64,000 nucleotides of DNA, taken from Fervidicoccus fontis Kam940. GTDB lineage: Archaea > Thermoproteota > Thermoprotei_A > Sulfolobales > Fervidicoccaceae. The notes beneath the pieces are model-generated. The model ran no database searches and had not been told where the DNA came from. It was given only the letters and a program-made list of their open reading frames with translations. Location: NCBI RefSeq assembly GCF_000258425.1, contig NC_017461.1, positions 806,001 through 870,000 on the forward strand. The letters run 5' to 3'. Within the stretch, counting starts at the first letter, position 1, and each line of letters starts with the position of its first letter. Below, piece after piece: positions 3,015-61,862 of this stretch. The position numbers were made by a program, and so were the translations under genes.

Positions 3015-3057
3015 CTGACCTCCTCCCCGCCTTAAAGGGCGAGGGTTTCAGTTGTAA
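3015..3057 (-). repeat. IS605-type right end with TnpB C-terminal tail (mini-element, with 3058-3130)
   Basis: On the minus strand an open frame of 27 codons begins at ATG 3116, continues through FGFPAAFMVRL and ends TTETLAL-stop inside the palindrome cgccttaaagggcg, followed by gaggaggtcag. This matches how archaeal TnpB genes run into the IS605 right end. Together with the 3104-3125 hairpin it forms a compact element of about 115 bp with nearly all of tnpB missing. The nearest homologous copy is 51224-51360, which shares the gaggctt...ttccagcg stretch. Confidence 0.7.
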
Positions 3058-10434: not shown

Positions 10435-10792
10435 ATAAATTTATCTAATCTTTAATTCGCTATAATGGACTTGAAATTCTAGTCTGAATATGTAGAGTTT
10501 TTTACTGTTTGTCTTAGTTTCCACATTTTAGACTTAAGCGAAGATTTGTTATTTAAATTCATTTGCTCATTTAGTGACAAAAAATGGGATTTTTTAGTTA
10601 TAAATATACAATTTTATCATTTGGATTTTTTCGATCTGACCTCCTTCCCACCTTAAAAGGCGAGGCTTTCAGTTGTAAACTGCTAGCTTATTGGTCAATT
10701 TTTAAAAGCTCCATTAGTTTTTAACCCAGCCGATCGTCTTGCCCTTTTTAGATGTCTCGCAAAAGAAACTGATTTTAGGTGTATTACTTATA
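10435..10792. other. AT-rich intergenic region between divergent genes, holding one palindromic element
   Basis: This stretch holds the divergent promoters of the purine permease and the methyltransferase and the palindrome at 10636-10678. I see no further coding or RNA feature in it. Confidence 0.6.
10636..10678 (-). repeat. IS605-type right end with TnpB tail (decayed)
   Basis: The minus strand reads aca-act-gaa-agc-ctc-gcc-ttt-taa (TTESLAF-stop) and continues into ggtgggaaggaggtcag. A TAG lies three codons upstream in the same frame, so no more of the TnpB frame survives. Confidence 0.6.
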
Positions 10793-15774: not shown

Positions 15775-15817
15775 TTACAACTGAAACCATCGCCCTTTAG
15801 GGCGGGGAGGAGGTTAG
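15775..15817 (+). repeat. IS605-type right end with TnpB tail
   Basis: The plus strand reads aca-act-gaa-acc-atc-gcc-ctt-tag (TTETIAL-stop), with the perfect hairpin cgccctttagggcg and the ending gaggaggttag. It begins five bases after the DUF401 stop, in a gap of only 56 bases before the convergent SPL-like gene, where it may also terminate transcription. Confidence 0.7.
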
Positions 15818-30853: not shown

Positions 30854-30978
30854 GATCAGATTTTCCCATCTAATGAGATAACAAAAACAAACAAAATAAG
30901 GAATGAGTTCAAGAAAAAGATAATCACTGAGATCAAAGATAAAAAGGAAAAAGAAGCAATTTTAAAGCTGTTAAAAAG

Positions 30979-31019
30979 TTACAACTGAAGGCTCGCCCTT
31001 TTGGGCGGGAGGAGGTCAG
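30979..31019 (+). repeat. IS605-type right end with altered TnpB tail
   Basis: The plus strand carries ttacaactgaaggctcgccc and a hairpin gcccttttgggc, then ggaggaggtcag. The tail codons read TTEGSPF and the stop has been lost. It lies 97 bases before the E1 alpha gene and 126 bases after the flavin-reductase remnant. Confidence 0.6.
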
Positions 31020-50259: not shown

Positions 50260-51102
50260 ATGAAAAAAGCTTTTCTCTCTGTAGATCTTGAGGGTTTGCC
50301 CTTTATAGTGAACAGGGGACAGCTTTCAACCGGAAACCCCCTCTGGGAGGAGGGGAGGAGGATAGCGAGCGAGTTAACATACGCCGCTGTGAAAGCGATC
50401 CATGATGAGGGATTCGATGAGGTGATTGTAGCAGATTCTCATGCTGATATGATAAACATATACTATGAGAGGCTTCCTAAATATGCATATTTAGTTAGAG
50501 GCTATCCGAGACCTAGGTCAATGATAACTGGAGCTGAAGGTTGCAGCGCGGCATTCTTCTTAGGATATCACGCAGGTGTAGGGACGAAAGATGCAACATA
50601 CGATCATTCATTCAGTAGTGCAACTATTAAGGAATTGAGATTGAACAGCGAAAAAACAAGTGAATTTATCTTCAATACACTGGCATTAGGAGAAATAGGG
50701 ATTCCTGTAATATTTGTAGCAGGAGATGAGGCTTTGAGGGAGGATGTGGAGAAGTTCGCTCCGTGGGCCGTGTTCGTTCCTTTAAAGAAGTCCTATGGCA
50801 GGTACTCATCTATAAGCCCATCTATTGAAAAGCTCAATGAGGATCTAGCTCAAGGAGTTAAGGAAGCTGTGAGGAGGATGAGCAATGGTGAGGCAAATGT
50901 TGCATCTATAGATAAACCAGTAAATGTAAAAATCGACTTTTTATACTCTGGATATGCTGAGGTTGCCGAATATCTACCATTTGTGAAAAGAGTTAGTGCG
51001 ACAGCCATAGAGTATATATCAAATAGTGTACTCGAAGCTTACAATATTATGGAACTTTTAACTATAGTAGCGTCAGCAGTTAAAGTAATGACAGGGCAAT
51101 AA
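50260..51102 (+). CDS. DppA-like D-aminopeptidase (M55)
   Basis: A 280-residue zinc peptidase. Known DppA zinc ligands can be read: D9 and E11 (SVDLEG), H61 (VADSHADM) and H104 (FFLGYHAG), with the nucleophilic histidine H116 (ATYDHSFS) and an acidic ligand near residues 131-135. DppA from bacteria removes N-terminal D-amino acids from peptides; homologs also occur in archaea. ggtgg precedes the ATG. Base composition is patchy: about 50-58% GC at 50281-50400 (hand-counted sample) against about 38% just after. Its neighbours handle amino acids. Confidence 0.92.
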   Translation: MKKAFLSVDLEGLPFIVNRGQLSTGNPLWEEGRRIASELTYAAVKAIHDEGFDEVIVADSHADMINIYYERLPKYAYLVRGYPRPRSMITGAEGCSAAFFLGYHAGVGTKDATYDHSFSSATIKELRLNSEKTSEFIFNTLALGEIGIPVIFVAGDEALREDVEKFAPWAVFVPLKKSYGRYSSISPSIEKLNEDLAQGVKEAVRRMSNGEANVASIDKPVNVKIDFLYSGYAEVAEYLPFVKRVSATAIEYISNSVLEAYNIMELLTIVASAVKVMTGQ

Positions 51103-51414
51103 GAAAAGATTATCTAATTCAATAAAATTTTTTATGAAAAAAAGCTTTAGCATGTTCTGATCCTTAGCATCAGCGTTCTGTTTCAGATTTCCATAAAGGT
51201 TTATAAGAGTTTATATTTTGTTTCTGACCTCCTCCTCGCCCTAAAGGGCGAGGGTTTCAGTTGTAACCATTCGCTTTAGCGGAGGGAGTTGGAGCGTAAA
51301 GCTCAATTGAACGCTGGAAGCCTCGCTCCCAAAGAACGGAGTAGCTCACATAAAAATACCACGTTATTTTTTTAAATTCTAAAACAAGAAAAAATTTAAA
51401 TTTTTAAAGAAAAA
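51103..51414. other. Intergenic region with a well-preserved TnpB-tail mini-element
   Basis: 312 bases between convergent dppA and arginine deiminase genes. The element at 51224-51360 accounts for about half; the rest is AT-rich without visible features. Confidence 0.6.
51224..51266 (-). repeat. IS605-type right end with TnpB tail (best tail frame)
   Basis: On the minus strand an open frame runs from about 51352 through FFGSEASSVQLSF and LQLPPLKRMV to TTETLAL-stop, the stop lying in the perfect hairpin cgccctaaagggcg, followed by gaggaggaggtcag. This is the longest surviving tail frame, about 37 codons. The 51268-51360 part aligns with the element at 3058-3130. Confidence 0.7.
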
Positions 51415-58528: not shown

Positions 58529-58628
58529 AGCCGCCGGCGGGACTCGAACCCGCGACCCCCGGCTCTCCCTGATTTTTTAATTTAAACCGTACGAGGCCGG
58601 TGCTCTACCGGGGCTGAGCTACGGCGGC
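58529..58628 (-). tRNA. tRNA-Thr (CGT anticodon) with a 25-base intron
   Basis: Minus-strand cloverleaf: acceptor GCCGCCG with CGGCGGC, D-stem GCTC/GAGC, anticodon stem CCGGC/GCCGG with loop CT-CGT-A...A, and TPsiC arm gggttcgagtccc. The discriminator is T, as expected of archaeal tRNA-Thr, and no CCA is encoded. An intron occupies 58565-58589, after position 37, the canonical place, and its borders can form a bulge-helix-bulge. The mature length is 75 bases. Confidence 0.92.
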
Positions 58629-58850: not shown

Positions 58851-58934
58851 TGCGGGGGGTGGGATTTGAACCCACGCAGGCCTTCGCCAACGGATCTTAA
58901 GTCCGCCCCCTTTGTCCTGCTCGGGCACCCCCGC
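58851..58934 (-). tRNA. tRNA-Leu (TAA anticodon)
   Basis: Minus-strand 84-base class II tRNA: acceptor GCGGGGG with CCCCCGC, anticodon loop CT-TAA-GA within the stem GGA/TCC region, a long variable arm gttggcgaaggcctgc, and TPsiC loop ggttcaaatcc. The discriminator is A, as required for leucine. No intron is visible and CCA is not encoded. Confidence 0.93.
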
Positions 58935-58984: not shown

Positions 58985-59638
58985 TTATTTTTTATTTGCT
59001 TCTATAACATCCTTAATTCTTGCAGGCCTATGAGTCAGAACAATTATCCTATCGCTTATCTCCATCAGCTCATCCACCTGATGAGAGACAATTATAATTC
59101 CAAGTCTAATTTCCTTTTTAAGGTTCTTCAAGAGTGTTTGAAGGATGGATATAGAAGAGGAGTCAAGTCCAGTATATGGTTCATCCAAAATTAAAATATC
59201 GGGCATTATTATAAGGGCTCTAGCTATAGAAGCTTTCCTTGCTGTTCCCCCGCTCACCCTATTAGGATATTTGTCTAGGTGATCATTTAAGGAGAGGAGC
59301 TCGGAGACATAACTCAGCCTTTCTTCTATCTCTCTCTCACCTGCTCCGCTTATCTTCAGTCCTATGACAATGTTTTCTCTAAGTTTGAGCCATGGAAGTA
59401 AGAGGTTATCCTGAGGCACATATCCGATCTTCCCCCTAATTTTCACCTCTCCGCTATCTTTATTTTCAAGCCCAAGGATCGTTCTTAGCATAGTAGTCTT
59501 CCCGCATCCATTGGGCCCCATTATTCCGAGTACTTCACCTCTATTTAGTTTGAATGATATGTTGGAAATCACAGGACCATCGCTGAAGCTTTTAGTCAAA
59601 TTTCTAACTGCGATCAGTTCATCCACCTTCTCGACCAC
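58985..59638 (-). CDS. ABC transporter ATPase (nitrate/sulfonate/taurine type)
   Basis: A 217-residue SsuB/TauB-like ATPase. Walker A is GPNGCGKTT, the Q-loop is YVPQDNLLLPWL, Walker B ILILDEPYTG and the H-loop IIVSHQVDE. The signature motif is VSGGTARKASIARAL in place of the usual LSGGQ/M-QR form. It overlaps the permease gene by 25 bases. GTG 59638 is used, though GTG 59626 is also possible. Part of an uptake system with the two genes upstream. Confidence 0.93.
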   Translation of the reverse strand: MVEKVDELIAVRNLTKSFSDGPVISNISFKLNRGEVLGIMGPNGCGKTTMLRTILGLENKDSGEVKIRGKIGYVPQDNLLLPWLKLRENIVIGLKISGAGEREIEERLSYVSELLSLNDHLDKYPNRVSGGTARKASIARALIIMPDILILDEPYTGLDSSSISILQTLLKNLKKEIRLGIIIVSHQVDELMEISDRIIVLTHRPARIKDVIEANKK

Positions 59639-60339
59639 CCTTCTATAGGCTTGAGAACAGCTTCATCTAAGAGGATCATGAGCAGAACTAGAAGAATGCT
59701 CCAGGCGAACACTCCTTGCTTATATCCTAGGTCGTAGGAGTATAGAAGCATATATCCTATCCCCCCGCTTGCCCCAAGGGCTTCAGCGACTACAGTGATT
59801 CTCAAAGCGCTTCCGATCGCTGCTCTACTCCCTCCGATAAGATAGGGGAGAGTGCCAGGAATAATCAAATAAAGCAGCTCATGCCTTTTCTTTGCACCGA
59901 AGACCTTGAAGAGTTCTCTGTACTTCCCCTCTATGCTCTGCATTCCGCTAATTCCAATGCTCAAGAGGATAGGGTATGACGTGGCAGAGACGACGAAGAT
60001 AGGAGGAAGACCGCTGGTCACTCCATATATGATTACAAATATTATGGACCATACCAGGACGGAAATGCTCTGAATAAAAGTGTTCAACGCAGTTATGAAG
60101 CTCCTTAAATGTAGGTTTATGTGATAGGCGATCAGAGAAATCATAGCTAAAGCAAAAGATAAGGCGAAACCTAAAAAGGTGTTCTCCAGAGTTTTAAAAA
60201 CGTTTCTAGCTATGGAAATGATCCCTTGGATTTCTATGTAAAGAGCTACGGATGAGAGAGAAGGTATAGCGTAAGGGTATGTCCTCTCTAATGCTATCCA
60301 TAGTATGAAGAGAAAAATAATAAGGTAAATCCATCCCAA
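59614..60339 (-). CDS. ABC transporter permease (SsuC/TauC type)
   Basis: A 241-residue BPD-type inner-membrane component with six hydrophobic segments. The EAA loop appears as ELFKVFGAKKRHELLYLIIPGTLPYLIGGSRAAIGSALRITVVAEALG, the conserved pattern of the NitT/TauT group. TTG 60339 is the most likely start. Between it and the binding-protein stop is a degenerate palindrome (60365-60399). Substrate unknown. Confidence 0.93.
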   Translation of the reverse strand: MGWIYLIIFLFILWIALERTYPYAIPSLSSVALYIEIQGIISIARNVFKTLENTFLGFALSFALAMISLIAYHINLHLRSFITALNTFIQSISVLVWSIIFVIIYGVTSGLPPIFVVSATSYPILLSIGISGMQSIEGKYRELFKVFGAKKRHELLYLIIPGTLPYLIGGSRAAIGSALRITVVAEALGASGGIGYMLLYSYDLGYKQGVFAWSILLVLLMILLDEAVLKPIEGWSRRWMN

Positions 60340-60364
60340 AATACTAAGTCTTCTCTTTAACTTT

Positions 60365-60399
60365 CTCTCACTCCTAAAGGGCGAGTTTTTTATTTGTAA
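60365..60399 (-). repeat. Degenerate IS605-type end between two ABC transporter genes
   Basis: The minus strand carries ctcgccctttaggagtgag after the binding-protein stop: the tail reads TNKKLAL-stop, a decayed TTETLAL. It lies between the binding-protein gene and the permease gene, where an RNA hairpin could shield the upstream message. Confidence 0.5.
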
Positions 60400-61370
60400 A
60401 ATACTTGATCACCTATACTACTTGGATCACTTGTGAGATATCCTCCGATCCATGCAAGCTTCCAGGAGCTTCTTATTCCATCTATAACGCCCTGGCTTAA
60501 GTTGTTGTCGAGAACTGTTACCCTAGAGTAAAGGTACTCAGCCGTCTTTTCATTTAAGTTGTAAATGCTCATTAAAGCAGAGATGGTTTCATTTTCATTC
60601 CCGTTCCAAATATTAACGGCATCTTCCCTCGTCTTAAGGAAGGAGTTAATAAGCTCCTTATTGTTAGATGCGCTCGGAGAAGCCACCCATATGAGCATTA
60701 CCGGCTCACCGCTCATGTTTGCCTCCTTCCAAAAAGTTTGGTAATCAGCGATTATAGAGGCATTGTAATTGACTACAGCCTCAGAAACGAATGGCTCCCA
60801 TGCGATAATTGCATATATGTCATTTTCCCTCATTACGTCCAGAAAGGATCCTGGAAGCGTGTTTATGGCATAGATCGTGTCATTTCCCTTTCCCTGCTCG
60901 CTAACTGTTATGTTGTATATATACTTCATGTAAGCCTTGAACATCATATATGTACCAGTAGAGAGGAGAGTCGCGACAGTCTTACCCTTTAGTTCTTGAG
61001 CTGAGATGTTTCCCTTTACAGTCAGGATCGCCTGGTTTTGAAGCATTTCAGGAGCTATTATTTTTACGGAGATATTTTGAAGTAACATGTTAGCAGCCAT
61101 TTCGCTCGGTATAACTGCTACATCTATGCTCCCGCTTGCAAGAGCATTTATTATATCTGTAGTCTTGTCGAACCTATATACTTGAAGCTCATAGCCGTAT
61201 TTTTCGCTTAAGTTGTAGTACTGCATTATGTCTAACGTGCTTATTCCTCCCTGCAGAGTACCGGCCCTTATTATCATAGGGGAGGACTCCTTCTCTCTGT
61301 AAAATGCATAAGATGCGCCTAAAGCAACTGCAACTACAACTATTATTATTAAAATATATTTTGTATTCAT
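60390..61370 (-). CDS. ABC transporter substrate-binding protein (SsuA/NMT1-like)
   Basis: About 326 residues. An N-terminal hydrophobic anchor (YILIIIVVVAVALGASYAFY) tethers a periplasmic-binding-protein-like domain: IRAGTLQGGISTLDIMQYYNLSEKYGYELQVYRFD, ALASGSIDVAVIPSEMAANML, KGKTVATLLSTGTYMMFKAY and IIAWEPFVSEAVVNY, in the pattern of NitT/TauT proteins. ATG 61370 follows ggtgat. First gene of the operon; sulfonates, nitrate, thiamine precursors and the like are all possible substrates. Confidence 0.9.
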   Translation of the reverse strand: MNTKYILIIIVVVAVALGASYAFYREKESSPMIIRAGTLQGGISTLDIMQYYNLSEKYGYELQVYRFDKTTDIINALASGSIDVAVIPSEMAANMLLQNISVKIIAPEMLQNQAILTVKGNISAQELKGKTVATLLSTGTYMMFKAYMKYIYNITVSEQGKGNDTIYAINTLPGSFLDVMRENDIYAIIAWEPFVSEAVVNYNASIIADYQTFWKEANMSGEPVMLIWVASPSASNNKELINSFLKTREDAVNIWNGNENETISALMSIYNLNEKTAEYLYSRVTVLDNNLSQGVIDGIRSSWKLAWIGGYLTSDPSSIGDQVFYK

Positions 61371-61413
61371 GGTATCACCCGAGATCATGAGATAAGCATT
61401 TGAGCATACTCAA

Positions 61414-61620
61414 CTGACCTCCTCCCCGCCCTAAAGGGCGAGGGTTCCCTTTAGGGAATTCATCGGTTCCCCGCATCTATTCGGGCTTACATCTTTCATC
61501 TGCGGGGCAGTCGAGGGGATCAGAGATCCCCTCATCTGGAGCTTGTTTATGGGGTTGCCGAACCCTCATCCAGCAGTTGGGGAAAACCCCTCATCCTCGA
61601 CACACCTCTCCAGATATTCA
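61414..61620 (-). ncRNA. Orphan omega-RNA-like multi-hairpin region at an IS605-type right end
   Basis: Hairpins in plus coordinates: cgccctaaagggcg (61427-61440); ttccctttagggaa (61445-61458); ccccgca/tgcgggg (61469-61475 with 61501-61507); gaggggatc/gatcccctc (61513-61533); gggtt/aaccc (61552-61565); gggg/cccc (61579-61590). Tcgagg (61511-61516) can also pair with cctcga (61595-61600). On the minus strand gatgaggg(g) precedes three of the stems. The minus strand ends gaggaggtcag, as TnpB-associated guide RNAs do before their guide. No TnpB gene is present. Transcription is not shown. Confidence 0.5.
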
Positions 61621-61655
61621 TCATCAAAACAAAATAGAGAACATAGAGCTTAAAA

Positions 61656-61862
61656 ACCTTCACCCCACCTTAAAAGGCAAGGGTTTCAGTTGTAATATGA
61701 TATCTCAGCCCAATGTTTGGACTTCTTAGAGCATGTTATTGTTTTATATCAAATCCTCTATCCTTGAACTCAGAGCGCCCGGAGAGTCCTTCTTTTGTGA
61801 CCCATATCATTTGCATTCATCCCTCTTTAATTGGCCTCAACTTGTAGTTCACCTCTCATAGA
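61656..61862 (-). pseudogene. tnpB 3'-end remnant
   Basis: A single minus-strand frame can be followed from NYKLRPIKEG, across a stop, MQMIWVTKEGLSGRSEF-KDRGFDIKQ, across a second stop, HALRSPNIGLRYHI and TTETLAF-stop, which ends in the palindrome caccttaaaaggc (61656-61695). I take it as the decayed C-terminus of a TnpB-like protein. Earlier TnpB domains, including the RuvC and zinc-ribbon parts, are absent. Confidence 0.5.

Follow-up and report, generated by a model that had tools for sequence, protein, structure and literature searches.

Donor-site cutting guided by an omega-RNA is a known way in which transposons of the IS200/IS605 group persist, and bacterial IS605 elements have been reported to include palindrome-associated transposable elements (PATEs) with an omega-RNA. 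HgcC, a non-coding RNA of archaea, has been on record since the early 2000s. In IS608 of Helicobacter pylori, the two ends follow a code that matches TTAC to AAAG at the left and TCAA to GAAT at the right (PMC5934647). Expression of HgcC RNA has been reported for Thermococcus and Pyrococcus, and T. kodakarensis has seven HgcC sequences, five of them expressed, three of which start inside transposase genes and two do not (PMC4247193); the function of this RNA was still called unresolved in 2017 (PMC5732400).

The window analyzed here is the whole stretch of 64,000 nucleotides covering positions 806001-870000 of the Fervidicoccus fontis Kam940 genome, a single contig of 1,319,206 bases. The initial annotation singled out a GC-rich structured stretch in an AT-rich gap at 61414-61620, with a minus-strand motif repeated three times, and read it as an omega-RNA scaffold of IS200/IS605 type without a tnpB gene. 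The contrast in composition is as described (GC 56% within 61414-61620 versus 28% in the gap to its right), and the minus strand indeed has exactly three copies of GATGAGGG, at 61595, 61570 and 61536. Of 2000 dinucleotide shuffles, 27 contained some 8-mer at least three times. Relatives carry GTGGTTGC, GGATGCGGGG and AGATGGGGGG at the three places, so the triplet is incidental and not a feature of the family. Folding of the minus strand yields -83.6 kcal/mol (z -2.1, with 4 of 200 shuffles equally good), a signal that is real but modest when taken alone. We regard homology, as measured by a covariance model of other genomes, as the decisive evidence that the observation is real.

This model (R1), trained on 26 sequences from other genomes with the own genome left out, matches the window over its full length at 61414-61541 on the minus strand (145.9 bits, E 5.6e-41), which defines a 128-nt omega-RNA scaffold core and supplies the structural match to omega-RNAs that the initial annotation called for. 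It is the best copy in the genome, where R1 finds 43 matches, most of them weak; the next best score 108.9, 108.3 and 105.1 bits, and the tnpB-linked copies are decayed (105-109 bits). The DNA of this locus recurs at 40 places in the host genome and has matches in 29 of the 59 relatives' genomes searched, and the scaffold is present in 43 of 126 genomes of the class (E<=1e-15). Among plasmids, just three records matched, all from Sulfolobus/Saccharolobus, and in two of these the match lies at a TnpB gene.

In several Thermoproteota, homologous cores lie directly after a complete tnpB (L120, L150 in genome G044, L141 in G038 and L095 in G009), and the window is thus homologous to scaffolds that overlap or abut tnpB 3' ends. 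The L120 core, which adjoins an intact TnpB, scores 144.3 bits versus 145.9 for the window; its TnpB reaches 125.2 bits against the NCBIfam guided_TnpB cut-off of 100 and has the TNB zinc domain. In G044, four cores stand right behind TnpB matches of full length, and for at least nine more no TnpB is nearby. The full-length relatives L141, L151 and L095 also share a conserved ORF of ~40-50 aa that follows the left end and precedes tnpB; it has two CxxC pairs (MKLKCPKCDYIWEYKGRNPYYATCPRCLRKVSIARYRVE), and we found no curated family past its cut-off for it.

The structure is conserved with covariation, including two-sided changes at 4 pairs of helix 6. Across 20 elements, 92.1% of cells are paired in the proposed structure versus 32-52% when it is slid, and the covariation score of 0.189 exceeds all slid versions as well as the shuffles (0.154 +/- 0.009, 0 of 500 as high), a shuffle control that is inflated by related rows. 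The best-supported helix is the CCCCGCA/TGCGGGG stem, with two-sided change at 4 pairs, and the 5' stem (helix 1) has 88% of its cells paired and both sides changed at 2 pairs. For the six bases that adjoin the guide, GGUCAG (GGTCAG at 61414-61419), RNAalifold predicts pairing with CUGAYC of the first hairpin (CTGATC at 61518-61523, minus strand), with 97% of cells paired over 20 sequences; several pairs hardly vary, including most of this guide-adjacent pairing, which is therefore only weakly tested. The minus-strand DNA left of 61414, proposed at the outset as the guide, is in the position that the scaffold predicts (TTGAGTATGCTCAAATGCTT, 61394-61413).

The array limits of 61414-61620 proved real but too short, missing the left end and promoter at 61649-61695. 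Comparison with ~20 tnpB-less copies elsewhere, which have both ends in common, sets the left end at 61695 and bears out the placement in a mobile element of 282 bp including its TTAC target (61414-61695, minus strand). We had also considered 61650-61695 as a second, decayed right end, a reading ruled out by the same comparison with relatives, which identifies it as a left end. On the minus strand, the element reads target TTAC, left-end hairpin, TATA-like promoter, 5' stem module, omega-RNA core, right-end hairpin and TCAG. In the stand-alone copies, TTAC-AACTGAAAGCCTCGCC...GGGCGGGGATGAA at the left is followed by a TATA-like site ~40-47 bases in, then by stem module, core and ...GGGCGGGGAGGAGGTCAG at the right.

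The left cleavage and target site TTAC (61692-61695) is that of IS608, is the putative TAM, and recurs in 22 of 25 collected elements, a set gathered with a pattern favouring TTAC. Further in lie the left guide AAAC (61683-61686; AAAG in the family version) and, behind it, the left-end hairpin CCCTTGCCTTTTAAGGTGGGG (61663-61683), both placed by the element alignment. The TATA-like TTTTTAAG (61649-61656) has a similarly placed counterpart in 22 of 24 elements by a lenient pattern set post hoc, and RNA would be predicted to start near 61627. The full tnpA-tnpB element L157 of the same family has the same right end and promoter motif, and carries AAGGTTTATAAGCTCTGTATTCTCTA at its left end. The 5' stem module (61551-61595), with an outer GGGGTT/AACCCC stem and inner C/G pairs, is seen in stand-alone copies, with homologous versions in ~20 elements from several families, those of L115 and L128 being closest; codons upstream in the parent element may be its source, which is a guess. 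At the other end, sequence and family alignment give the right guide GAAC (61444-61447), the right-end hairpin (61424-61444) and the cleavage site TCAG (61414-61417). The locus has the hallmarks of a PATE: it lacks a gene for a transposase, its palindromes lie near the termini and match ends of IS605 type, and its cleavage sites are defined, with a guide tetranucleotide 5' of each hairpin (TTAC/AAAG and TCAG/GAAC in the family, AAAC at the left in the window).

The closing sequence does recur, as initially claimed (CTGACCTCCTCCCC eight times in the window with <=2 mismatches, 0.22 expected), but most of its occurrences are 43-bp fusions of left and right ends and not other right ends. Seven such 43-bp-type elements, TTACAACTGAAACCCTCGCCCTTTAGGGCGGGGAGGAGGTCAG and degenerate forms, represent the smallest form of the transposon family and lie at approximately 491-533, 3015-3057, 10636-10678, 15775-15817, 30977-31019, 50323-50365 and 51224-51266. 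Among the loci fetched there are about 20 elements of this short kind, nearly all from the host genome.

The window keeps an in-frame tnpB C-terminus (KLQMRGSLIPSTAPQMKDVSPNRCGEP... and KLQMRGSLIPSTAPQMKDVSPNRCGEPMNSLKGTLAL up to the stop) that resembles the intact TnpB of L095. Internal deletion of a tnpB element would have produced a non-autonomous IS200/IS605-group element that kept both ends, the left-end promoter and the complete TnpB guide-RNA scaffold. The promoter would drive a minus-strand RNA from near 61627 through the 5' stem and the 128-nt scaffold, taking its guide from the DNA beyond 61414. Were TnpB supplied in trans, this RNA would steer cleavage to the empty donor site (TTAC + ttgagtatgctcaaat), which would read ...atattac joined to ttgagtatgctc..., ttgagtatgctc being the flank into which the RNA would run past 61414.

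In its present host, the omega-RNA is an orphan. We could not find any TnpA in the host genome, represented by one assembly, nor an intact TnpB: four remnants are present, none over the guided_TnpB cut-off, the best being a 193-aa fragment with 73.8 of 100 bits, which leaves only fragments and no TnpB to bind the scaffold. The suggestion that the guide RNA is used by a TnpB encoded elsewhere is therefore unsupported in this genome. The putative guide lies directly 3' of the right end and its only target is the locus itself, as expected after insertion; the target search gave chance-level matches (8 versus 5 in the control), with no other match below 3 mismatches and none behind TTAC. Because the left guide AAAC, unlike the family AAAG, does not fully pair with TTAC by the IS608 code, the element is predicted to be immobile and may be locked in place; lacking an effector and with a mismatched left-end guide, it is probably inert here. 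Trans use is at least possible in G044, since stand-alone copies and complete TnpB genes coexist there. In G004, a same-family relative with a 91% complete genome, there are 26 R1 matches and 5 TnpB matches, none of the latter over the NCBIfam cut-off, and stand-alone guide-RNA elements can thus far outnumber tnpB genes in some archaea.

Such decay agrees with the view that the locus is purely a fossil, the end portion left over from a dead tnpB element, which survived by chance and makes no RNA: the genome has many decayed relatives and TnpB fragments and no TnpA was found in it, and the transposition guide at the left end looks damaged, as does the supply of proteins. The fossil of the initial suggestion is only half right. 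The RNA core, however, is at family consensus, far above the next best copy in the genome, and the same architecture is common to several genera and families, from which we conclude that what spread, as a non-autonomous element, was the form with the deletion; we consider a pure fossil rather unlikely.

Considerably less probable is that the locus acts as a riboswitch or other cis-regulatory leader, perhaps through co-option of a transposon end. The element does sit in the leader of an NMT1/SsuA-type ABC transporter operon on the same strand (58985-61388, minus strand; substrate-binding protein, permease and ATPase, PF13379, PF00528 and PF00005) and stops some tens of bases before the first gene begins, but its relatives occupy unrelated places with precise TTAC..TCAG ends, and no riboswitch was found in the Rfam scans; local co-option as a leader may have followed insertion. 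We rejected as very improbable a C/D box small RNA, with GATGATGA and CTGA as its boxes, or a structured RNA of some other, unrelated kind: TGATGATGA resembles a C box but the sR35 match on 61568-61628 is non-significant (E 0.08) and the conserved part is the omega-RNA core with transposon ends.

We thus hold with high confidence that the locus is best explained as a whole by a PATE with ends, promoter and full omega-RNA scaffold, probably inert in this genome, with HgcC most likely of the same kind. The omega-RNA is real, well preserved and stand-alone, and the IS200/IS605 element that houses it is protein-free. Its kind is ordinary; we do not call it a new kind of element, since PATEs with omega-RNAs are already described for bacterial IS605 elements.

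Concerning HgcC, Rfam at the gathering threshold returned tRNAs only. Two tRNA genes are longer than their model (58529-58628, 100 bases, and 58851-58934, 84 bases), the first of which probably contains an intron. In a permissive scan, HgcC (RF00062) was the closest family (61402-61533, 41.1 bits, E 2.2e-8), and sot0042 matched 61423-61578 (E 0.0025); formal membership in either cannot be claimed because the scores lie below the Rfam cut-offs (50 bits for HgcC). Sub-threshold HgcC matches are also present in the TnpB-linked cores L120, L141 and L151, and an initial HgcC pattern scan of genomes gave no match.

We took 41 HgcC-type loci from 61 genomes in the class to which a Thermococci MAG belongs. 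At 24 of them a same-strand TnpB ORF, or part of one, abuts the RNA and right end, although many of these TnpB-linked matches score mainly via the right-end hairpin. Canonical copies (L228 with 111 bits, L254, L257-L261 and L229) have no same-strand TnpB; all end in a AGGAGGTCAG-type right end, and in seven of the eight, TCAC followed by guide and hairpin starts 72-89 bases upstream. The left guide is GAAG in 5 of these 7, which is what the IS608 code predicts for TCAC. Being related to each other, these copies amount to about one independent case. Several other stand-alone HgcC-type matches have 43-bp-type ends only. The published T. kodakarensis sequences, with expressed copies both within and outside transposase genes, are in agreement with this picture. 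At L228 (1672-2808, opposite strand) and L236, HgcC lies beside an opposite-strand TnpB, like the antisense HgcC of Pyrococcus furiosus.

From these sequence comparisons, HgcC is most likely a stand-alone omega-RNA in Thermococci, of the same kind as the window RNA. That HgcC and the crenarchaeal elements form one class of RNA-only transposons, with promoter and dedicated 5' stem, whose guides load resident TnpB in trans, is a tentative proposal in which we have somewhat less than even confidence; if true, a single TnpB might force the host to retain many elements that lack protein genes. The likely identity of HgcC as an omega-RNA ties an orphan family annotated without function to RNA-guided TnpB systems and gives it a concrete, testable one. 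Our literature search found no paper with both HgcC and TnpB, and the link may still have been published.

Set against the described systems, the window RNA shares with HgcC (RF00062) a CUGGCC-loop hairpin, the guide-adjacent GGUCAG, a right-end hairpin, GAGGAGGUCAG, a variable 3' flank and a left-end hairpin upstream; HgcC copies are stand-alone or within transposase genes, and differ in the middle of the RNA and in a left site TCAC instead of TTAC. The haloarchaeal sense overlapping transcript sot0042 (RF02656) has the same type of terminal hairpin at its RNA 3' end, but the window scores just 19.8 bits against a cut-off of 88. SisTnpB7 of Sulfolobus islandicus likewise has a right-end omega-RNA/reRNA overlapping the tnpB 3' end with its guide in the flank, and a TAM equal to the insertion site, as would hold for the putative TAM of the window; it uses TTTAA and a scaffold end TTCAC, whereas the window has TTAC and TCAG and no tnpB (PMC11043419). 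IS608 shares with the window family the TTAC target, the AAAG guide 5' of the left hairpin and the right-end pairing code, with TCAA and GAAT in place of TCAG and GAAC, and the window element has no genes (PMC5934647). The PATEs of Haloquadratum walsbyi, in the portion of their description drawn on here, also lack a transposase, have near-terminal palindromes related to IS605-type elements and arise by core deletion, with terminal-only derivatives of 52 bp compared with 43 bp in our family; by that same portion, the window element differs in being crenarchaeal and in having a recognizable full omega-RNA scaffold and promoter position (PMC3119063).
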